DNA of 64,000 nt from Rhizobium sp. R634 (GTDB taxonomy: Bacteria > Pseudomonadota > Alphaproteobacteria > Rhizobiales > Rhizobiaceae). Below, piece by piece: positions 53,697-63,739 of the stretch. Under the pieces are notes generated by a model that saw nothing but the letters and a program-made list of their open reading frames with translations, searched no databases and was not told the DNA's origin. Position 1 is the first letter of the stretch, and every line of letters starts with the position of its first letter. The position numbers were made by a program, and so were the translations under genes. The stretch spans positions 186,001 through 250,000 of the forward strand of contig NZ_LOKW01000004.1 of the NCBI RefSeq assembly GCF_002211305.1. Reading direction: 5' to 3'.

Positions 53697-54611
53697 TCAG
53701 GCCTCCATGTTCTTCCTCGGATCGTGTGGATGTGCCGCCGCCCATTCCTTCACCAGGGACGTCAGCCGCTCGTCAGGCTGATCGGGCAAGACGATCTTCA
53801 GGGAGACATAGACGTCGCCGTGCCCGCCGCCGCGTTTCGGAACGCCCTTGCCCTTGAGGCGCAGGACTTTTCCGGTGTTGGAATGAGGCGGCAGCGTCAG
53901 ATTGACGGGGCCTGAAGGCGTGGGGACGCGAACCTTGCCGCCGAGCACCGCTTCGCCGAGCGAAATCGGCAGCTCCAGGCGGATGTCGTCGCCGTCGCGC
54001 GTGAAGAAGCGGTGCGGGCGCACATGGATCTCGATGAGCGCATCGCCTGCCGGCCCGCCGCCAGCACCCGGCTCCCCCTTGCCGCGCAACCGCAAGGTTT
54101 GGCCGTCGCGCGTTCCCGGCGGGATCCCCACCTCCAGCGCGGGGCCATCCGGAAGCTTGACCTCGGTCCTGGTGCCGTTGATGGCCTCGAGAAAATCGAC
54201 CTCCATCGAAAAGCGCCGGTCCTGGCCTTGGCTGCGCGCCCGGCCGCCGCCGGTGCGGCGTGAAAAGAAGCTCGCAAAGATGTCGTCGGCATCGCCGAAG
54301 TCTGCGAAGCCGGCGTTGCTGCGATAGGGATTATCGGCGCCGCCGGCCGAGGCATAGTCGCGGTAATAGCTGCGCTGCGCCCGCTCGGCGCCCGTCATAT
54401 CGATCTCGCCGCGGTCGAAGCGCCCGCGCTTCTCTTCGTCGCTCAAAATCTCGTAGGCGGTCGAAATTTCCTTGAAACGCTCCTCGGCCTTCCTGTCGCC
54501 GGGGTTCAGATCGGGGTGCAATTTCTTGGCAAGCTTACGGAACGCGCTTTGAATATCCTTTTGCGACGCATCCCGCTTCACGCCCAGAAGCTCATAGGGA
54601 TCCTGGCTCAT
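53697..54611 (-). CDS. cbpA: DnaJ-class co-chaperone CbpA
   Basis: This 304-residue protein has a J-domain (residues 4-70) with His32-Pro33-Asp34, a glycine/arginine-rich linker, and two C-terminal substrate-binding domains, including GTRDGQTLRLRGKGEPG and GKVLRLKGKGVPKRGG. It has no zinc-finger domain, so it is CbpA-like rather than DnaJ. It stimulates DnaK under stress. cbpM follows directly. Confidence 0.93.
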   Translation of the reverse strand: MSQDPYELLGVKRDASQKDIQSAFRKLAKKLHPDLNPGDRKAEERFKEISTAYEILSDEEKRGRFDRGEIDMTGAERAQRSYYRDYASAGGADNPYRSNAGFADFGDADDIFASFFSRRTGGGRARSQGQDRRFSMEVDFLEAINGTRTEVKLPDGPALEVGIPPGTRDGQTLRLRGKGEPGAGGGPAGDALIEIHVRPHRFFTRDGDDIRLELPISLGEAVLGGKVRVPTPSGPVNLTLPPHSNTGKVLRLKGKGVPKRGGGHGDVYVSLKIVLPDQPDERLTSLVKEWAAAHPHDPRKNMEA

Positions 54612-54702
54612 GCATGTCTCCGCTCAGGCAGCCAATTCTGCCGTTGATTTGCCTGAAATATAGGTGGTCAGGGCGCCGGAGGGGAGGGGAGGCTGTGGAG
54701 AG

Positions 54703-55149
54703 CTACAACAGCGCTTCGTCTTCCTGCGGCTGATCGTGACGCCGATCGATGAGGACCGAGCAGCCCGCGTGGCGCACGACCTTCTCGACGATCGAGGAAA
54801 AGACGTAGTCGGTGATATCGGGGACATGCGATGACAGCAGGATGAGATCGGCCGATCTCTCCTTGGCGGCCGATATGAGCATGGAGGCCGCAACGCCGAT
54901 GCGAACCTCGACCGTTGCCGGAACACCCAATTCCCGACAGAGCGATACGAGCTTCCTTTCGGCGTCGGCCATCGCCGTCGTCTCGAATTGCTCCGGAAGA
55001 TCCATGAGGTGGCGGTGCGGAATATTCTCGACGACGTGCAGGACGACAATGCTGCCGCCTTGGTCCAACAGCGCCGCCGCCCGGCGGAGGAGGCGGATTG
55101 CCGTTTCCCGGGAACCCATGCCGATGCCGCAGATGATCGTCCGATACAT
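54703..55149 (-). CDS. Universal stress protein family, degenerate nucleotide-binding motif
   Basis: This 148-residue UspA-like protein begins YRTIICGIGMGSRE and has the conserved strand VVLHVVE. The C-terminal loop that usually reads G-x2-G-x9-G-S/T is here SSHVPDITDYVFSS, so ATP binding is doubtful. ATG 55149 fits the domain start. The FNR-type promoter at 55186-55227 indicates induction by low oxygen. cbpA follows after 91 bases. Confidence 0.84.
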   Translation of the reverse strand: MYRTIICGIGMGSRETAIRLLRRAAALLDQGGSIVVLHVVENIPHRHLMDLPEQFETTAMADAERKLVSLCRELGVPATVEVRIGVAASMLISAAKERSADLILLSSHVPDITDYVFSSIVEKVVRHAGCSVLIDRRHDQPQEDEALL

Positions 55150-55185
55150 TGAGTTCAATATCCCCGAATACGAATAGCCTCGCCG

Positions 55186-55227
55186 ATCATACCCGGCGCC
55201 GGCCACCTCTGCTTTGACCGATATCAA
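55186..55227 (-). promoter_or_regulatory. FNR/FixK-type box with class II promoter
   Basis: On the minus strand TTGATATCGGTCAA (55227-55214) matches TTGA-N6-TCAA. After exactly 22 bases comes TATGAT (55191-55186). This spacing places the box at -41.5, the standard position for activation by FNR, FnrN or FixK. The predicted start, near 55179, is 30 bases before the stress-protein ATG. Confidence 0.72.
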
Positions 55228-55353
55228 GCAGAAATGCCGCAACATCGCAACGCAGGAAGCGGCCATCCGGAAGGGCTCGGGCGGATCGTCGCAGTTGACG
55301 GCACGGCCGTCGGCAATAGCTTTACCGCGATATCGTCAATCATCGAGGTTCAC

Positions 55354-56217
55354 ATGGGCAATATCGCAATCATCGGATCGGGCGCGATGGGAAGCGCCGT
55401 CGCCAAACGGCTGATCGACCATGGCGCCACGGTACTGACCTATCTCGACGGCCGGAGCGAGCCGACGATCGCGCGAGCGCGGGCAGCCGGGATGATTCCG
55501 GTCGCGCTCAAAGAGCTGGCGAAGGCCGATCTGGTCCTGTCGATCGTTCCGCCGGCAGAAGCGATCAAGGTCGCCGAACAAGTCGCGGAAATATCACTGG
55601 AGAATCCCGCGCCGCCGCCCTTCATCGACCTCAATGCGATTGCGCCGAAAACGATGCAGGCATTGGCGGCGCGGTTCGAAGGCAGCCGGGTAGAAGTCCT
55701 CGATGGCGCCATCATCGGCGGTCCGCCGGTTGCCGGCAAATCAGGTCCGACACTCTATATCAGCGGCGATAGCGCGGAGCGGAGCCGGCTGCTTGAGAAA
55801 CATGGCTTGAAAGTCCGCAGGCTCGCTGGACCGCTCGGCGCGGCATCCGCGCTGAAGATGTGTTATGCCGGCATCAACAAGGGATTTGCAGGGCTTGGTG
55901 CCGCAATGCTGCTCGCCGCATCGCGCTCGGGGGCCGCCGAGAGCCTGAAGGCCGAGCTCGCCGAAAGCCTTCCCGATATCGAGCGCAAGCTTTCGAAGTC
56001 CATTCCCGACATGTATCCGAAGGCCTATCGTTGGGTTGCCGAAATGCAGGAGATCGCCGATTTCCTCGGAGAGGACGATCCGGCGGCGACGATTTTTCGG
56101 GGTATGGCCGGTCTTTTCTCCCGGCTGGCGGCGGATGTGGACGGCGACCGCGCCCTCGTCAGGCAGTTGCACAAGGTCCTCGCACCGTCGGAAACCGGCG
56201 CGATGGTCATGCCTTAG
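55354..56217 (+). CDS. NAD(P)-dependent 6-phosphogluconate-dehydrogenase-like protein (DUF1932 type)
   Basis: This 287-residue protein has an N-terminal Rossmann domain with IAIIGSGAMGSAVAKRL and a helical C-terminal domain of the kind called DUF1932. The segment LDGAIIGGPP near residue 119 and the lysine-containing LKMCYAGINKG near residue 168 match the hydroxyacid dehydrogenase pattern. ATG 55354 follows GAGG; an earlier frame start at 55234 adds unconserved sequence. The substrate is unknown. Confidence 0.82.
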   Translation: MGNIAIIGSGAMGSAVAKRLIDHGATVLTYLDGRSEPTIARARAAGMIPVALKELAKADLVLSIVPPAEAIKVAEQVAEISLENPAPPPFIDLNAIAPKTMQALAARFEGSRVEVLDGAIIGGPPVAGKSGPTLYISGDSAERSRLLEKHGLKVRRLAGPLGAASALKMCYAGINKGFAGLGAAMLLAASRSGAAESLKAELAESLPDIERKLSKSIPDMYPKAYRWVAEMQEIADFLGEDDPAATIFRGMAGLFSRLAADVDGDRALVRQLHKVLAPSETGAMVMP

Positions 56218-56221
56218 AGCC

Positions 56222-56255
56222 GCTGCCGGCACCTCGCGAGAGAGGCGCCGGCAGC
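56222..56255. terminator. Bidirectional terminator hairpin
   Basis: GCTGCCGGC (56222-56230) pairs with GCCGGCAGC (56247-56255). One mismatch follows, then CCTC/GAGG pairing around a 6-base loop. It lies between two convergent genes, 5 bases after one stop. It lacks a T-run, so it may act mainly as a 3'-end stabiliser. Confidence 0.55.
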
Positions 56256-56281
56256 TGGGACTCGGCCGGTCCAAGCCACGC

Positions 56282-57106
56282 CTATATCTTGGTGAAGTCC
56301 TCGACCTGCGCACGGATCGCGATCTCGGTCGGCAGCCGCTCCATCGAACTTGCGCCGTAGAAGCCGTTGCAGCCCTTGCAGCGGGCGAGCACATAGGCGG
56401 CATCCGCCGGCATGGAGATCGGGCCGCCATGGCAGAGGACGATGACGTCGTCGCGCACCGACCGCGCGGCATCGGCCCATGCATCGATTTTCTCCACGCA
56501 TCCGTCGAGCGTCAGCGCCGTTTCGGCGCCGATCGCGCCGCCCGTGGTCAGGCCGAGATGGCAGACGACGATATCGGCGCCGGCTTTGGTCATGGCGCCG
56601 GCGTCCTCGCTGCTGAAGACATAAGGGGTCGTCAGCATGTCCTTGGCGTGGGCGCGGGCGATGACGTCGATCTCAAGATCGAAGCCCATACCGGTTTCTT
56701 CGAGATTGGCGCGGAAAGTGCCGTCGATCAGCCCGACCGTGGGAAAATTCTGGATGCCGGCAAAACCCATCGCCTTCAACTCGTCGAGGAAGTGATCGGG
56801 CAGCATGAAGGGATCGGTGCCGTTGACGCCGGCCAGCACCGGTGTGTGGCGCACGATCGGCAGAACCTCGCGGCCCATCTCCTTGACGATCTCATTGGCA
56901 TTGCCATAAGCGAGCAGGCCGGCCAGCGAGCCGCGCCCGGCCATGCGGTAGCGCCCGGAATTGTAGATTACGATCAGGTCGATGCCGCCGGCCTCCTCGC
57001 TCTTGGCGGAAAGGCCGGTGCCGGCGCCGCCGCCGACGATCGGCCGGCCCTCGGCGATCTTGCGGCGAAGCTTGTTGAGAATGTCGTTTCTGTCGATACG
57101 GGTCAA
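56282..57106 (-). CDS. TIM-barrel protein of the Tm-1 C-terminal / PEP-hydrolase-like family
   Basis: This 274-residue TIM barrel starts with a typical [19 protein letters not shown] region and contains [13 protein letters not shown] near residue 116 and [13 protein letters not shown] near 182. It belongs to a family annotated as phosphoenolpyruvate hydrolase-like or signal transduction TIM barrel. Its start overlaps the end of the upstream gene by 4 bases. In tomato Tm-1 the same two domains occur in one protein, so the two bacterial products probably form a complex or pathway. The reaction is unknown. Confidence 0.8.
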
Positions 57107-58314
57107 AATTTCCTCCTTGAGGCATGGATGTCATGGAAGTTGGCGGCGAGTGCCGCGGCGAATTCCGGGCTGTTGATATGGGCGTCGATCTCGACGAGTC
57201 GCCTGTTCGGCGCATCGCGCCAGCCGTCGCGGATGGCTGAAAACAGCGCCGCGTCGGCTTGCGGATCGTGGAACGGCTGACCGGCTGCGTCGATGGCCGA
57301 AACGCCCTGGAGCGGCAGCAGGAAACGGACCGGACCCCGCATGCGGTTGAGCCTTTCGACGATGAAGGCGCCGATCCGGCCGTTTTCCTCCGGCGTGGTG
57401 CGCATCAGCGTCACCTGTGCATTATGGACGTGAAGCCTGCGGTCGCGGAAAGGTGCCGGCACGGTTTCCCGCGCGCCGAAATTGACCATGTCGACGGCAC
57501 CGACCGAGCCGACATAGGGCAGGCCGGTGCGGATGATGGCGCCGAAGCGATCCTCGGTGGCCGGAAAGACACCGCCGACGAGGAGATCGGGAACCTCCGT
57601 CGTCGTCACATCGATCACGCCCTGCAGCAGGCCGGAATCGGCAAGTTTCTCCATCGACTGGCCGCCGACGCCCGTCGCATGGAAGACATAGATTTCATGC
57701 GTCTTGCCGAGCGTCTCGCGCACCTGCGTGACGCAGGCCGTGGTGACGCCGAACATGGTCATGCCGATACCCGGCCGATCGTCGCTCGAAGCGGGAATGG
57801 GGTTGCTGGCCATGCCGGCCGCCGCGTTCGCCGCATTGCCGATCACCTTGCGCGAGATCGCGTTCAGGCCGGCGACGTCGACGACCGAATACATCATGGT
57901 CAGATCGTTCGGTCCGACATAGGGCGCGACATTGCCTGAGGCGACTGTCGAGACCATCAGTTTCGGCAGGCCGATCGGAAGCGAGCGCATCGCCTCCGTC
58001 ACCAGCGCGGTATTGCCGGTTCCGCCGAGGCCGAGAACGGCGCCGATGTCATCCCGCGATCTGAGGAACGCCGTCAGCGCCTTGGCCATCGCCGAGACCG
58101 CCGTTCCCCGATCCGTCTGCCCGAGCACGGCCGGCGCACCCTCGGGATGAAATTCCGCGACTTCGCGCGCCCGGATATCGGCGCCTGCACCCTCCCCAAG
58201 CGTGCCGACATCGACCAGCACAGCATCGGCGCCGGCGGCACGGACCACCTCCCCGGCGTAGTTCAGTTCCGCTTCCTTGGTATCACAGGTGCCGACGACA
58301 TAGACCTTTCCCAT
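57103..58314 (-). CDS. Tm-1-like ATP-binding protein (UPF0261 family)
   Basis: This 403-residue protein is a complete UPF0261 member. The N-terminal [14 protein letters not shown] and [15 protein letters not shown] near residue 94 are characteristic, and [14 protein letters not shown] near residue 188 begins the second half. The family is homologous to the N-terminal half of tomato Tm-1, which binds ATP. ATG 58314 follows GAGGAGG. It is divergent from a GntR regulator that probably controls it. Confidence 0.84.
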
Positions 58315-58371
58315 TGGTTTTCCTCCTCTTTTTGAACTTTCTCTGTGTGTGTCTCGATAAAATTCCCGATT

Positions 58372-58412
58372 TTGTATTTTCCATATTGTATATTCTTTCG
58401 TATATTGCATAC
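58372..58412. promoter_or_regulatory. AT-rich repeated half-sites, probable GntR operator region
   Basis: TTGTAT occurs at 58372-58377 and 58386-58391, and GTAT-N5-ATAC forms an imperfect palindrome at 58400-58412. They lie between the divergent UPF0261 and GntR genes. FadR-type GntR regulators commonly bind short AT-rich palindromes of this kind. Confidence 0.45.
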
Positions 58413-58445
58413 TTAAGTCACGAACGCCAGACGGAAATGGAGACC

Positions 58446-59099
58446 ATGAACGCACCGCGCCACCTCACCCTTCGCGAGCGGATCTACGAGGAAATCGTTC
58501 GCCTGATCGTCTCCGGCGAACTGCCGAGCGGCGTGTCGATCGATGAAAAGGAACTGACGGAACGCCTGCAGGTCAGCCGCACGCCGTTCCGCGAGGCGAT
58601 CGGCACGCTGGCCAAGGAAGGGCTGATCGAGATCAAGCCCTATCGCGGCTTCTTCGTGCGCAGCTTCACGCCGAAGGAGATCGACGATCTCTACAATCTG
58701 CGCAAGACGCTCGAATGCTTCGCCGTCGAGCTCGCCGTCCCGCAGATGAGCGACCGGCATATTTCAGGCTTCGAACGCATCCTGGACGAGGCGGTGGCGG
58801 CGCTGCGCCGCGGCGACATGGAGACCTACGGCATTCGCGACAAGGAATTTCACGAGACCATCGCCGAGCTTTCGGGAAGCCTGCCGCTGATCGAGACGCT
58901 GGCGCGGCTGGCGCTGCAGATCCAGATCTGCCGCTCGATCGCCAATGAGAGCCGCGACTTGGCCGAAAGGGCGGCCGAGGAGCGCGATCAGATCCTGCAG
59001 GCTTTCCGGGCGCGCGACATTGGCCGCGCGAAGGCGCTGATGCACGCGCATATCAGCGACGTCCAGCAGGCGGTCATGGCGCGGTTTCAGAAGGGTTAG
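58446..59099 (+). CDS. GntR-family regulator, FadR/FCD subfamily
   Basis: This regulator of about 217 residues has a winged helix-turn-helix ([19 protein letters not shown], then [19 protein letters not shown]) and a helical FCD ligand domain with the metal-type residues in DKEFHETIA near residue 135. ATG 58446 and ATG 58437 are both possible. It lies between divergent genes and directly upstream of the importer operon, so it may control both. Confidence 0.88.
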
Positions 59100-59110
59100 C
59101 CGAGAACGTG

Positions 59111-59132
59111 AAGGAGAGGGAGGTCTCCTTTT
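59111..59132 (+). terminator. Small hairpin with T-run after the GntR gene
   Basis: AAGGAGA (59111-59117) and TCTCCTT (59124-59130) form a 7-bp stem with a GGGAGG loop, ending in TTTT. It may partly terminate transcription from the regulator gene before the binding-protein gene. Confidence 0.4.
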
Positions 59133-59176
59133 CAACAGTAAAAACGTGGCCGAGGAGAGGCCCGGAGGAGGGAACA

Positions 59177-60430
59177 ATGTTGAAATTTCTTGCCCGCAGT
59201 ACGGCACTGGCGGCGATGCTTGCCGCAAGTTCGCTGGCGCATGCCGAGACCCTGAATATGTGGGGTCCGGAACAGATCACCGAACCGCTGGTCGCGCAGC
59301 TCTGGAACGGCATCAAGGCCGATTTCGAAAAGGCCAATCCCGGCGTGACCGTCGAGTTCATGCCGCCGACCGGAACGATCAGCAACGGTGCGGTGCAGGC
59401 GGCGATCCAGTCGGATGCCGGCCCCGACGTGATCCTCACCAATTCAGGCATCGGCCGCATCAGCGTTGTCAAGAACGCCAAGCAGGTGATCCCGCTCACC
59501 GAGCAATATGAAAAGCGCGGCTGGAAGGACCAGATCTATCCCTGGCTCTACACCGAGCTGAAGGGCCAGTTCGGCGGTGAGATCTACGAGGTTCCCGACG
59601 GCCTCGATGCGTTGGGCATCTGGTATCACAAGGATATTTTCGAGCAGGCGGGCTGGAAGATCCCGGCGAGCTGGAGCGAATTCGAAACGCTGATGAAAGC
59701 GATCGAGGAGACCGGCGTACAGCCGATCGCCATCGGCCCGCGCACGCCGGGCAGCGCCGGCCATCTCTTCGGCAACCTGCTGCAATCGGCAAGCGGCAAG
59801 GAGGTGATCGGCAAGGCGCTGCGCCGTGAGATCGCCTGGGACGACCCATCGGTCGCCGCCGGCGCCATCCGGCTGCAGAAGCTGGTCGAGGCGGGCTACA
59901 TCAAGAAGGAAATGGCGGGTCTCGATCTCGATGGCGCCTCGCGCCTCTGGTTCAACAAACGCGCGGCCATGTTCGTCGCCGGCCCCTGGTTCACCGCCAA
60001 TGCCCGCAAGGCAGGCTATGACCTCACTAACGCCGGCTATGCGCCGATGCCTTCCGACATCAAGGGCGCGGCGATGCCGACCGGCGGCGTTGGCTGGAGC
60101 TGGCTGGTGCCCGTCAACTCCAAGCAGCCGGAACTCGCGATGAAATGGATCGACTTCATGCTGTCGGACGCGGTGATGAAGAAACGCGCCCAGGATCCGG
60201 CAAGCACGATGATCTATCCGCGCGAAATCCCCGGCGTCGAACCTCCGACGCCAGTGCTCAAGGATATCTTCGCGGCCGCGGCCAGCGGCGTCGGCTACAA
60301 TCCGAGCGTCTATCTGCCGGGCACCGTGCTCGACACCTATTTCCAGGTCATCCAGGGCCTGATCTCCGGCCAGATCGGCGGCGAGGAAGGCATGAAGCAG
60401 ATCCAGGCCAAAATGGCAGAGGCGAAATAG
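59177..60430 (+). CDS. ABC transporter periplasmic binding protein, family 1
   Basis: This 417-residue family-1 binding protein has a signal peptide ending LAHA-ET. It shows patterns such as SDAGPDVILTNSGIG near residue 77, DGLDALGIWYHKDIFEQAGW near 142 and FVAGPWFTANA near 271. GGAGGAGGGAAC precedes ATG 59177. It delivers a sugar or sugar-acid-like ligand to the permeases encoded downstream. Confidence 0.9.
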   Translation: MLKFLARSTALAAMLAASSLAHAETLNMWGPEQITEPLVAQLWNGIKADFEKANPGVTVEFMPPTGTISNGAVQAAIQSDAGPDVILTNSGIGRISVVKNAKQVIPLTEQYEKRGWKDQIYPWLYTELKGQFGGEIYEVPDGLDALGIWYHKDIFEQAGWKIPASWSEFETLMKAIEETGVQPIAIGPRTPGSAGHLFGNLLQSASGKEVIGKALRREIAWDDPSVAAGAIRLQKLVEAGYIKKEMAGLDLDGASRLWFNKRAAMFVAGPWFTANARKAGYDLTNAGYAPMPSDIKGAAMPTGGVGWSWLVPVNSKQPELAMKWIDFMLSDAVMKKRAQDPASTMIYPREIPGVEPPTPVLKDIFAAAASGVGYNPSVYLPGTVLDTYFQVIQGLISGQIGGEEGMKQIQAKMAEAK

Positions 60431-60495
60431 TGGTCATTCCAGAAACGCCCGGAAGCAAGGTCGTGGCTCCTCTCAGGGATGCGCCTGCCGTGGCG

Positions 60496-60528
60496 GGACA
60501 TACGGGCGGCCTGTCCGCCCGTATGTCC
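60496..60528 (+). promoter_or_regulatory. 14-bp perfect inverted repeat covering the permease start codon
   Basis: Left arm 60496-60509 and right arm 60515-60528 pair perfectly over 14 bp with a 5-base loop. The right arm contains ATG 60523, the probable permease start. In RNA the hairpin would hide that start and also mark the 3' end of the binding-protein message. Confidence 0.6.
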
Positions 60529-61425
60529 AAACGCCGGACGGCCAGGTCAGCTTCGCCCGACGGCGATGCCGGCACCGCATTCTGGCTGATGGCGCCGGCG
60601 CTCGGCCTCTATGCCGTCTTCACGCTGTTGCCGATCGCCGCCACTTTCTGGCTGAGCTTCAACAGCTCGGCCGGCTTCAACACCTCGGCGAGCTTCGTCG
60701 GCCTCGGCAATTATGCCAAGGCGGCGCATGATCCGATCGTCTGGAAGAGCCTGGTCCATACCTTCGTCTGGCTGGCCTATCATGTGGTGATGGCGGGCGG
60801 TCTCGGACTGCTGCTGGCGCTCGCCGTCAGCCGGCTGAGGATCACCCAGGTCTTCTTCCGCACCGCGTTCTTTCTGCCGCATCTGGTGTCGCTGGCCGTG
60901 GTCGGCGTCATCTGGGCCAATATCTACGATCCGTTTTTCGGCCTGCTGAATACGGCGCTGACGCGGATCGGGCTCGGCGCCTTCACGCAGGGCTGGCTTT
61001 CCGATCCGGCGCTGGTGCTCTTTTCCGTCAATCTCGCAAGCTCCTGGCAGGGTTTCGGCCTCTACATGCTGCTCTTCATCGCCGGCCTGCAGAATATCGA
61101 CCGTTCGCTCTACGACGCGGCTGAGGTGGACGGCGCCAACGCATTCCAGAAGCTGATCCATGTAACACTGCCGGGGCTTCGCGAGGTGACGACCTTCGTC
61201 GTCTCGCTGGCGATGATCAACGGCCTGAAGGGCTTCGCCACGGTCTTCGTCATGACCAACGGCGGGCCGTTCTACCAGAGCGAACTGATCACCACCTATA
61301 TTTACCGGCTTGCCTTCCAGTCCCAGGATCACGGACTTGCGGCGGTGCTCTGCATCCTGCTGAGCCTGCTGGCGATCGCCATCACCATCGTCTTCAACCG
61401 CTGGCGCGCGAGGCTTTCCCAATGA
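60523..61425 (+). CDS. ABC sugar permease, MalF/UgpA-like
   Basis: This permease of about 300 residues has a first helix near residues 19-41 and the EAA motif AAEVDGANAFQKLIHVTLP near residue 201. ATG 60523 gives the usual length. GTG 60430, just at the binding-protein stop, is in frame and has GAGG upstream, so a 331-residue form is also possible, but its added region encodes a hairpin rather than protein-like sequence. It overlaps the next permease gene. Confidence 0.85.
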   Translation: MSKRRTARSASPDGDAGTAFWLMAPALGLYAVFTLLPIAATFWLSFNSSAGFNTSASFVGLGNYAKAAHDPIVWKSLVHTFVWLAYHVVMAGGLGLLLALAVSRLRITQVFFRTAFFLPHLVSLAVVGVIWANIYDPFFGLLNTALTRIGLGAFTQGWLSDPALVLFSVNLASSWQGFGLYMLLFIAGLQNIDRSLYDAAEVDGANAFQKLIHVTLPGLREVTTFVVSLAMINGLKGFATVFVMTNGGPFYQSELITTYIYRLAFQSQDHGLAAVLCILLSLLAIAITIVFNRWRARLSQ

Positions 61426-62249
61426 GTGTGCGCAATCGCGAATGGCCGGTGGCGCTGGCGCTGACCCCTGTTCTGATCCTGATCCTCGCTCCCTTCGTCT
61501 GGCTGCTGGTCTCGAGTTTCAAGACCGAGGCCGAGATCGGCAGGGCCGATCCCTTCACCTGGCCCGCCGACCCGATGTGGCGGAACTATCTGGACGCCTG
61601 GCAGATCGGCGGCTTCGGCGACCTCGTCGGCAACAGCCTCATCAACCTCGTCGGCGTCGTCGTCCTGTCGCTGATCACCTGCGCGCCGGCCGGCTATGCG
61701 CTCGCCAAGATCCGCTTTCCCGGCCGGGAATGGCTGTTCTACGCCTTCATCCTCGGCCTCACCGTGCCGGTCCAGGCGATCGTCATCCCGCTCTACCAGG
61801 TGCTATTCGGGCTGAACCTCGTCAACACGCTGGCAGGTATCGTGCTGGTGCAGGTCAGCAACGGCATTCCCTTCGGCATCTTCCTGATGCGGAGCTTCTT
61901 CATCGGCGTGCCGGATGATCTGATCGAGGCCGCCAAGATCGACGGCGCTTCGCATTCCCAGATCCTCACCAAGGTCTTTCTGCCGATCTCCACGCCGGCG
62001 GTGCAGGCGCTCGTCATCATCAGCGCGCTCTCCACCTGGAACGATTTTTTCCTGCCACTGATCGTGCTGATCAGCCCCGAGGTGCAGACCCTGCCGCTCG
62101 GGCTGGTGCGTTTCGCCAGCACCTACGCCTCCGATTACCGGCTGGTCTTCTCAGGCACCGTCATTTCGTTCCTGCCGATCATTCTTCTCTACATCCTGAT
62201 GCAGCGCCGCTTCACCGAGGGGCTGACGCAGGGAGCAATCAAGGGCTGA
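61422..62249 (+). CDS. ABC sugar permease, MalG/UgpE-like
   Basis: This 275-residue inner-membrane protein has six helices and the EAA motif AAKIDGASHSQILTKVFLP near residue 169. It starts at ATG 61422 inside the preceding stop (ATGA) and ends 2 bases before the dehydrogenase gene. Confidence 0.9.
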   Translation: MSVRNREWPVALALTPVLILILAPFVWLLVSSFKTEAEIGRADPFTWPADPMWRNYLDAWQIGGFGDLVGNSLINLVGVVVLSLITCAPAGYALAKIRFPGREWLFYAFILGLTVPVQAIVIPLYQVLFGLNLVNTLAGIVLVQVSNGIPFGIFLMRSFFIGVPDDLIEAAKIDGASHSQILTKVFLPISTPAVQALVIISALSTWNDFFLPLIVLISPEVQTLPLGLVRFASTYASDYRLVFSGTVISFLPIILLYILMQRRFTEGLTQGAIKG

Positions 62250-62251
62250 CC

Positions 62252-63343
62252 ATGTCGCACCACGTCCAGCGGGAAATCCGCTACAATTTCGAATTCGAGC
62301 ACCGCATCAAGGCCTGCTTCATCGGCGCCGGCGGCCATGCCTATCGCAATGTCTATCCGGCGCTGCGTTACGCTCCGGTCGAGCTTGCCGGCATCTGCGA
62401 TCTCGATCTCGGCCGCGCCGAGAAATTCGCCAAGCTCTTCGGCGCCGGCAAAGCCTATACCGATCATCGCGAGATGCTGAATCAGGAAAAGCCGGACCTG
62501 GTCTTTCTCGTCACTGCCTATCATCCCGACGGCCGGGTGCAGGCGACCGATCTCGCGCTCGACGCGCTTGCCTCAGGCGCGCATGTCTGGATGGAGAAGC
62601 CGACCGCCGCGACTATGGAAGACATCGAAAGGCTGCAGGCGGCAAGTGCCGCGGCCGGCCGCATGGTGATGACCGGCCTCAAGAAGACCTTCTTCCCGAC
62701 AGTCGAGAAGCTCAAGGATCTGATCGGCTCCCCCGGCTTCGGCCGGCTGACCTCGATCAATGTGCGCTATCCCCAGAGCCTGCCGAAGCCCGAAGAGCGT
62801 GGCGATCTCGTCAGGATGCAGAGCTTCCTCGATCATATCTATCATCCCGGCGCGATCCTCAATTTTCTCGGCGGAGAGATCGAACGCGCTGGTTATGAAT
62901 GGGAAGCGCTGACGGGGGCCACCGTCACCAGCCTGCGCTTCCACTCCGGGGCGATCGGCACGCTGCATCTTGCTGCCGGCCAATCCGGCGGCAGCATTTT
63001 CGAGCGGGTGGAGATCATTGGCGAGGGCGCCAATGCCATCGTCGAAAACGGCAGTCGGCTGACCTATTTCCGCAAGGCGGACCTGCCGTCCTATGGCCGC
63101 GCTGCAAGCTTCATCCAGCCGGACGAGAATGCCGCGTTGTTCTACGAGCCGGAGCATTCGCTCGGCCAACTCTACAACAACAATCTCTTCTATCTCGGCT
63201 ACGTGCCCGAGATCCTGCATCTGACGGATGCTATCCTTTCCGGCACATCGATCACCCGGGGCACGCTCGAAATCGCCCGCGAGATCATGAAGCTCTTCGA
63301 ATTCTACCGACGCACGGATGCCGGCGTCACCACCAATCTCTGA
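62252..63343 (+). CDS. Gfo/Idh/MocA-family dehydrogenase
   Basis: This 363-residue NAD(P)-dependent dehydrogenase has ACFIGAGGHAYRNV near residue 21 as its nucleotide motif, MEKPTAA near residue 112 as the catalytic-site motif, and DHIYHPGA near 195 in the substrate domain. It is coupled to the importer genes and probably oxidises the imported sugar or its derivative. Confidence 0.86.
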   Translation: MSHHVQREIRYNFEFEHRIKACFIGAGGHAYRNVYPALRYAPVELAGICDLDLGRAEKFAKLFGAGKAYTDHREMLNQEKPDLVFLVTAYHPDGRVQATDLALDALASGAHVWMEKPTAATMEDIERLQAASAAAGRMVMTGLKKTFFPTVEKLKDLIGSPGFGRLTSINVRYPQSLPKPEERGDLVRMQSFLDHIYHPGAILNFLGGEIERAGYEWEALTGATVTSLRFHSGAIGTLHLAAGQSGGSIFERVEIIGEGANAIVENGSRLTYFRKADLPSYGRAASFIQPDENAALFYEPEHSLGQLYNNNLFYLGYVPEILHLTDAILSGTSITRGTLEIAREIMKLFEFYRRTDAGVTTNL

Positions 63344-63358
63344 CGGGGAGGGACCGCC

Positions 63359-63739
63359 TTGAGCGAGACCGATATTATTTTCAGGAAAGCCGGCGGCGAA
63401 TTCATGCCGACCACATGGGGCGAACTCAACTGGAAGATCACCGGCGAAGGCACGCCCGGCGCCGAGATGACCTTCGGCACCTGCCGCATCAATCCCGGCG
63501 AGCGCAACCAGCTGCACTCGCATCCCGATTGCGAGGAGATCCTCTATGTCGTTTCCGGCCTTTGCGAACACAAACTCGGCGACGCGCTTTACCGGCTCGA
63601 AGCCGGCGACGCGATCCGCATTCCCCGCAATGTCCGCCATTGGGCGCGCGCACTCGGCACCGAACCGCTCTTCGCCCTGATCATGTTCTCCTCCGGCACT
63701 CGGACGGCGGTCAATCATGAAGGCGAAGGCGCGGCCTGA
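63359..63739 (+). CDS. Small cupin-domain protein
   Basis: This 126-residue single-cupin protein has the metal motif [18 protein letters not shown] near residue 48 and the second motif region around [12 protein letters not shown] near residue 90. Cupins of this type isomerise or bind sugars and acids. TTG 63359 is the start, 7 bases after GGGGAGGG. It is placed between dehydrogenase and ATPase genes of the same operon. Confidence 0.82.

Follow-up and report, generated by a model that had tools for sequence, protein, structure and literature searches.

What do the two halves of the tomato resistance protein Tm-1 do in a bacterium, where they are encoded by neighbouring genes? We addressed this question for a 64,000-nt stretch of Rhizobium sp. 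R634 (assembly GCF_002211305.1, contig NZ_LOKW01000004.1, positions 186,001 to 250,000; the whole stretch is hereafter called the window), the minus strand of which carries a UPF0261 gene followed by the gene of a PF09370 TIM-barrel protein (Table 1). The explanation that we favour, and consider moderately probable, is a co-translated two-step pair, in which the UPF0261 protein is the kinase of an imported metabolite and the TIM barrel acts on the phosphorylated product.

Both Pfam models of UPF0261 matched the upstream protein above the curated cut-off of 27 (N-terminal domain PF06792, 209 bits; C-terminal domain PF23189, 295 bits). PF09370 (PEP_hydrolase) matched the downstream protein at 433 bits over profile positions 2-267 of 267, i.e., over its full length and above the curated cut-off. 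The TTG start codon of the TIM gene (57106-57104) and the TGA stop codon of the UPF0261 gene (57105-57103) overlap by exactly four bases, TTGA. An earlier sequence-only reading of the window had described two Tm-1-type domains as separate genes with a 4-base overlap, and it was right on both counts. A ribosome-binding-site-like AAGGAGG lies five bases ahead of the TTG within the end of the upstream gene, and together with the TTGA junction it fits the expectation for coupled translation. A search of NCBIfam returned only 'hypothetical protein' models for the UPF0261 protein and no match at E ≤ 0.001 for the TIM barrel. The host genome (6.73 Mb, 29 contigs) contains one PF09370 match and two UPF0261 matches.

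The UPF0261 protein matched the crystallised N-terminal half of tomato Tm-1 (Protein Data Bank (PDB) ID 3wry, one of 3wrv-3wry) with an E value of 1.2e-92, and 178 of 394 aligned positions (45%) are identical. Its model, with a mean predicted local distance difference test score (pLDDT) of 92.7, has the same fold as this half (Z 47.7, root-mean-square deviation (rmsd) 1.9, 384 residues), confirming the homology that the sequence-only reading had proposed. For the downstream protein, homology to the C-terminal half is drawn from the literature. Residues 484-754 of Tm-1 form a TIM-barrel-like domain (PMC3855732), which according to Yang et al. (2016; PMC5028733) is the same domain as in bacterial TIM proteins. 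According to the same authors, the two domains are generally encoded by separate, coevolving genes in prokaryotes, UPF0261 accompanied the TIM domain in 491 of the 504 bacterial genomes that had the latter, and plants fused the two into Tm-1L, found in nearly all sequenced land plants (PMC5028733). The homology of the pair to Tm-1, with separate genes in bacteria and a fusion in plants, is thus already known, and the pair itself is no discovery. It differs from Tm-1 and Tm-1L in consisting of two overlapping genes instead of one fused protein, and whereas Tm-1 is known to bind a viral replication protein, the window pair lies in a metabolic setting.

The UPF0261 family probably consists of small-molecule kinases, the N-terminal half of Tm-1 among them, as judged by analogy with a relative in Novosphingobium. 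A Foldseek search with the window UPF0261 model revealed, besides Tm-1, Saro_1862 of Novosphingobium aromaticivorans (PDB ID 9mpy, released 2025-09-24; Z 36.1, 33% identical over 389 positions). This protein, the nearest bacterial UPF0261 relative of solved structure, was determined with bound acetovanillone, a phenol derived from lignin. Acetovanillone catabolism in N. aromaticivorans begins with MarK, a single-component kinase (PMC13101465, citing Hall et al. 2025), and MarK is probably Saro_1862 by our own reasoning. In Novosphingobium humi (locus L102), the UPF0261 gene overlaps a Biotin_lipoyl gene by four bases and is followed by genes for a biotin carboxylase, a PYC_OADA carboxyltransferase and a HAD phosphatase. 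The published order of the hpe genes is kinase, carboxylase, phosphatase (PMC9618137). The N. humi order matches it with UPF0261 replacing the two-component dikinase, which supports a kinase role of UPF0261 independently. The dikinases that occupy this slot, HpeHI and AcvAB, act on hydroxyphenylethanones and consist of ATP-grasp, swivel and substrate-binding domains (PMC12167813), but these domains were not found by Pfam in the window UPF0261 protein. The N. humi cluster as a whole (L102:8674-14062) resembles an hpe/acv acetovanillone operon with its kinase replaced.

Sequence conservation connects these proteins. We defined 49 invariant columns on 35 aligned UPF0261 proteins (34 from TIM loci and one without TIM); Tm-1 keeps 47 of them and Saro_1862 keeps 40. 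The 39 columns kept by both include T9, D11, T12, K13, E16, K118, H212, E240, R256, D275, R292, H297, N298 and D342. Fold matches of the window UPF0261 model to other families, such as dihydroxy-acid dehydratase and UDP-GlcNAc 2-epimerase (Z 9-12), were not used.

The two genes go together closely. Among 249 Pseudomonadota genomes, PF09370 was found in 20, all of which also have UPF0261, and UPF0261 without PF09370 was found in 10 more, in one case below the family cut-off. In each of 23 TIM rows checked, the UPF0261 N-domain lies 707-760 bases upstream on the same strand; this check covered 23 of 31 TIM rows, after regulator-type, fragment and sub-threshold rows had been dropped, and 26 of 49 UPF0261 rows. 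We also surveyed 80 loci, the best 80 of 492 confirmed TIM-barrel relatives, which are all at least 70% identical and thus close kin, not independent samples; Pfam was run on cluster representatives rather than on each gene. A UPF0261 gene was present in the surveyed stretch of all 80 loci, and in 75 of them it immediately precedes the TIM gene. The exceptions are L044 and L053, where the computed distance was off (415 and -94 bases), and L032, L037 and L066, where the two genes are separated, though on the same strand.

The model of the window TIM protein (mean pLDDT 80.6) resembles Mll9387 of Mesorhizobium loti (PDB ID 2p10; E 5.4e-126, Z 35.7, rmsd 2.3, 259 residues), a member of the same PF09370 family that is known by its title as a putative phosphonopyruvate hydrolase. 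Hydrolysis of phosphoenolpyruvate (PEP) or phosphonopyruvate by PF09370 proteins is suggested by name alone. The next fold match was 4ml9 (Z 18.5), whose title names a TIM barrel and its conserved phosphate binding site. Two groups then tied at a Z of about 15-16, PEP mutase/isocitrate lyase barrels (12-16% identity) and IGPS-type barrels, as matches of fold only.

PF09370-like domains also occur as the N-terminal sensor of sigma-54-type regulators encoded beside such pairs (L043:1689-3359, L099:11862-13691, L100:10481-12229). In L043, the regulator that was scanned, the domain (244 bits) is fused to sigma-54 AAA and HTH_8 domains. We compared barrels of pairs with barrels of sensors in an alignment of 80 paired TIM barrels, 13 sensors and four divergent paired barrels (L093, L101, L104 and L105). 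The sensor rows were identified by Pfam (L043), by BLAST clustering (seven others of its cluster), by annotation and reading (L099, L100) or from PF09370 rows of the genome scan (L104-L106). At least 85% of the sensors keep G227, G228, P229, G251, S253, R257, N49, R52, N71, D98, N120 and E145, among others. However, most sensors lack four others: Y48 is replaced by L in 12 of 13, H183 by N in 12, T187 by N in 13 and H226 by E in 11. These four residues are kept in every one of the four divergent paired barrels, as are E76, E80 and E256. In the window model, Y48 comes right after strand 2, strand 6 ends with H183, and H226 is close to where strand 7 ends; T187 is in a low-confidence loop after strand 6. 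That the four residues persist in paired barrels and are mostly lost from sensors suggests selection for chemistry. We infer that they form a catalytic set that was lost when a barrel turned into a sensor, while the phosphate-loop-type glycines were retained, and the sensor ligand may be a phosphorylated intermediate. Shorter, degenerate PF09370 proteins occur in nine of the 80 loci; two such proteins encoded beside a pair, L067:3294-3914 and L099:7280-7870, scored 43 and 74 bits.

In the proposed scheme, the UPF0261 protein would use ATP to phosphorylate the imported metabolite, the phosphate acceptor being, as a guess, a phenol-like or other acidic hydroxyl. The TIM barrel would then act on the product through phosphate-binding-type loops and the Tyr48/His183/Thr187/His226 site as a lyase or phosphohydrolase, by elimination, hydrolysis or carbon-carbon cleavage. 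The importer, the Gfo/Idh/MocA dehydrogenase and the cupin encoded nearby would supply or prepare the substrate. A sugar-like substrate is possible in view of the importer and the dehydrogenase, as is a phenolic or enolic one in view of the acetovanillone-bound relative.

UPF0261 genes without a TIM partner allowed us to see what else can follow the proposed kinase. In seven such loci (L085, L092, L094, L096, L097, L098 and L102), the gene after UPF0261 encodes a HAD hydrolase in L085 and L098 (with a 4-base overlap) and in L097 (without overlap), and a class II aldolase, again overlapping, in L092, while L102 has the carboxylase with phosphatase described above. No HAD-, aldolase- or carboxylase-type gene was found directly downstream of UPF0261 in L094 and L096. 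Five of the seven loci are thus consistent with an enzyme that has a phosphorylated compound as its substrate or that works downstream of one. A phmmer search with four HAD queries against the genes of L004-L085 found no HAD phosphatase in the 80 TIM loci, but it was probably insensitive; its sole match was one of the queries itself where chance matches were expected, and we did not rely on it. The L085 gene (L085:8804-10060; G000:C1) is the second UPF0261 gene of the host itself. Its cluster contains a HAD hydrolase, two aminotransferase-like genes, an APH-family kinase and homoprotocatechuate-type genes, as named in L098, an annotated relative. By analogy, a phenolic amino alcohol may be processed here by a kinase and a phospho-lyase. 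In L092 (L092:6542-9278), on a Thermus plasmid, UPF0261 lies between a creatininase-family gene and the aldolase gene.

Several points weigh against this scheme or limit its basis. Saro_1862 shares only a third of its residues with the window protein and alters 9 of the 49 invariant columns. In a 43-row tree, it is the sister of the N. humi protein (100/100), a relative followed by carboxylase and phosphatase and not by a TIM barrel, and the window protein falls outside this clade, in the TIM-paired group. The Saro_1862 branch joins the TIM-less branch weakly (83/21, long branches). Support is only 87/39 for Tm-1 together with all 34 paired rows, and 95/92 for 33 of them. Carboxylase and phosphatase genes of the hpe type were absent among the scanned neighbours of the window pair (53697-63739). 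Homology, overlap, co-occurrence, residue conservation and the operon slot of a relative were observed, whereas kinase activity of the window protein, the TIM reaction and the substrate are inferred, as is the identity of MarK with Saro_1862. On the side of the barrel, the putative phosphate loops are read from fold matches to a model and from glycines, loops 51-66 and 187-191 have pLDDT values under 50, and the 97% columns of the 80 TIM rows partly reflect kinship, the rows being close relatives.

The sequence-only reading had favoured a sugar acid or related compound, and a route for sugars or sugar acids would be a plain alternative: the dehydrogenase would oxidise an imported sugar and the pair would process the resulting keto-sugar or acid, so that UPF0261 need not be a kinase. 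The MalFG-type importer and the Gfo/Idh/MocA gene of the window fit this idea, as does a gene with a beta-L-arabinofuranosidase domain in the Qingshengfaniella cluster. By gene calls, MalFG-type permeases were found in 47 of the 80 loci, a LIV-type binding protein in 13 and neither in 20, although these tallies undercount L035, L050 and L052, all among the 20 (L050 had MalFG-type permeases in another calling). The LIV-type loci speak against sugars, as do two plasmid copies with no importer annotated nearby and the acetovanillone in the nearest solved bacterial relative. The neighbours also vary, with a cupin in 44 of the 80 loci, an SRPBCC protein in 26, both in none and neither in 10. Such diversity argues against choosing one substrate class, e.g., sugar acids, from the window alone. 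The small-molecule catabolic setting that the sequence-only reading had suggested is supported; a sugar acid in particular is not. We regard the sugar route without a kinase as unlikely; a sugar-like substrate as such is compatible with the kinase model.

The barrel might instead lack an enzymatic role and serve as a regulatory or scaffold partner, binding the ligand and controlling UPF0261. Yang et al. suggested a signal role for the domain (PMC5028733), and the domain is used as a sensor in sigma-54 regulators; the regulator cluster of L043 is present in eight of the 80 loci, all of them with a LIV-type importer. However, paired barrels, including the four divergent ones, keep the four residues that the sensors mostly lose, so that a purely regulatory barrel appears decidedly doubtful to us. 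An antiviral, i.e., anti-phage, role like that of Tm-1 in tomato would be the remaining explanation, and the copy on the Vibrio plasmid does lie near restriction-modification and AbiEii genes. However, PADLOC 2.0.0 matched no model at E ≤ 0.01 in any of the five proteins scanned, and the scanned neighbours are importers, dehydrogenases, cupins, SRPBCC proteins and metabolic regulators. The Pectobacterium copy is located among tra genes with no defence genes annotated beside it, a HigB-type toxin gene being ~5 kb off. An anti-phage function is thus highly improbable, and we prefer the kinase and its TIM-barrel partner.

The surroundings of the window pair (Table 1) agree with the sequence-only reading, which had placed it next to a GntR regulator, a sugar-type importer, a dehydrogenase and a cupin; Pfam matched GntR/FCD, SBP_bac_1, two BPD_transp_1, Gfo/Idh/MocA and Cupin_2. 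The same gene set in the same order is annotated on plasmid pRL9 of Rhizobium johnstonii 3841, where the pair is named 'Tm-1-like ATP-binding domain-containing protein' and 'phosphoenolpyruvate hydrolase family protein'. An AT-rich repeat between the divergent units recurs upstream of UPF0261 in 23 of the 24 Rhizobium-type regions examined and is a candidate operator of the GntR regulator, which would control both units. An NAD_binding_2 + DUF1932 dehydrogenase gene (55234-56217) is convergent with the TIM gene, and its cluster was found in 14 loci, namely 13 named Rhizobium records and the host.

Table 1. The Tm-1-type gene pair of Rhizobium sp. R634 and its surroundings, in positions of the window
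Feature	Position	Strand	Remarks
UPF0261 protein (PF06792 + PF23189)	57103..58314	-	403 amino acids; homologue of Tm-1 N-terminal half; proposed small-molecule kinase
PF09370 TIM-barrel protein	56282..57106	-	274 amino acids; proposed to act on phosphorylated product
Overlap TTGA, 4 bases	57103..57106	-	UPF0261 stop and TIM start
AAGGAGG, ribosome-binding-site-like	57112..57118	-	Within end of UPF0261 gene; read from sequence
Conserved AT-rich repeat, candidate GntR operator	58382..58411		Between divergent units
GntR/FCD transcriptional regulator, 220 amino acids	58437..59099	+	Pfam
ATP-binding cassette (ABC) importer, solute-binding protein (SBP_bac_1)	59177..60430	+	Longer open reading frame (ORF) 59108-60430; start by gene call and pRL9 length
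ABC importer permease, MalF-like (BPD_transp_1)	60430..61425	+	ORF 60145-61425; start by gene call
ABC importer permease, MalG-like (BPD_transp_1)	61422..62249	+	Pfam
Gfo/Idh/MocA dehydrogenase	62252..63343	+	Pfam
Small Cupin_2 protein, 126 amino acids	63359..63739	+	Pfam; ABC ATPase next, by gene order

Other settings of the pair were also observed. On two haloarchaeal plasmids the order is TIM, (cupin,) UPF0261, and the Qingshengfaniella cluster has a cupin and an SRPBCC gene together, so that we do not call these two slots equivalent. The Pectobacterium and Vibrio plasmids (L091:7237-10069 and L090:7154-10054) carry the pair as cargo together with a divergent TetR gene. On the Pectobacterium plasmid this cargo is flanked by traM and traL. 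No importer is annotated nearby on either plasmid in the gene tables, which are incomplete. In Bradyrhizobium (L093:7932-13335, L101:7824-13337), a divergent UPF0261/TIM pair is followed by genes for an FAD-dependent oxidoreductase and a pyruvate kinase; judged by its first residues, the FAD-type gene is also present in L104 and L105. A signature-tagged mutagenesis screen lists BAB2_1127, a UPF0261 gene of Brucella, among its attenuated mutants (PMC2364660).

How the plant protein arose can be viewed from the same data. In the 43-row tree, Tm-1 joins two Planctomycetota UPF0261 proteins (96/88) inside the TIM-paired rows, in agreement with Yang et al., although its place is unsure because of a long branch and an unusual composition. 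At both Planctomycetota loci (L042 and L051), the TIM gene is directly downstream of UPF0261. The published origin of plant Tm-1 is a two-transfer scenario (Yang et al. 2016, PMC5028733). The tight bacterial operon offers a simpler candidate than two independent transfers, in which a single operon was transferred and its two genes then fused; against it, the TIM tree of Yang et al. joins plants with fungi (PMC5028733).

Among the literature matches listed, none gave a function of PF09370 or linked Tm-1 or UPF0261 to small-molecule kinases, although Hall et al. 2025 may make that link. The kinase-plus-partner reading was not found in the literature searched, which is no proof of absence, and it is directly testable. 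The likely kinase role of UPF0261 was missing from the sequence-only reading. Such pairs, of which one scan returned 492 TIM-barrel relatives, now carry only 'Tm-1-like ATP-binding' and 'phosphoenolpyruvate hydrolase family' annotations, and reading each half of Tm-1 as a probable enzyme gives direct assays for the plant protein as well as for the bacterial pairs. Titles and abstracts indicate that breeders are introducing Tm-1 into tomato as a protection against tobamoviruses. Tentatively, and with less confidence than in the bacterial scheme, we propose that Tm-1L is a bifunctional metabolic enzyme, in which a metabolite kinase is joined to a lyase or hydrolase of the phosphorylated product, that one bacterial operon moved as a unit, and that a bacterial barrel without the catalytic residues became a sigma-54 sensor, probably for the phosphorylated intermediate. 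The antiviral action of Tm-1 would then be secondary: the pair would have become one protein in plants, and tomato Tm-1 would later have used the kinase half to bind the viral replication protein. As the first half probably belongs to a kinase family and the second is probably a partner acting on the phosphorylated product, the virus-blocking protein of tomato likely grew from a metabolic enzyme pair.
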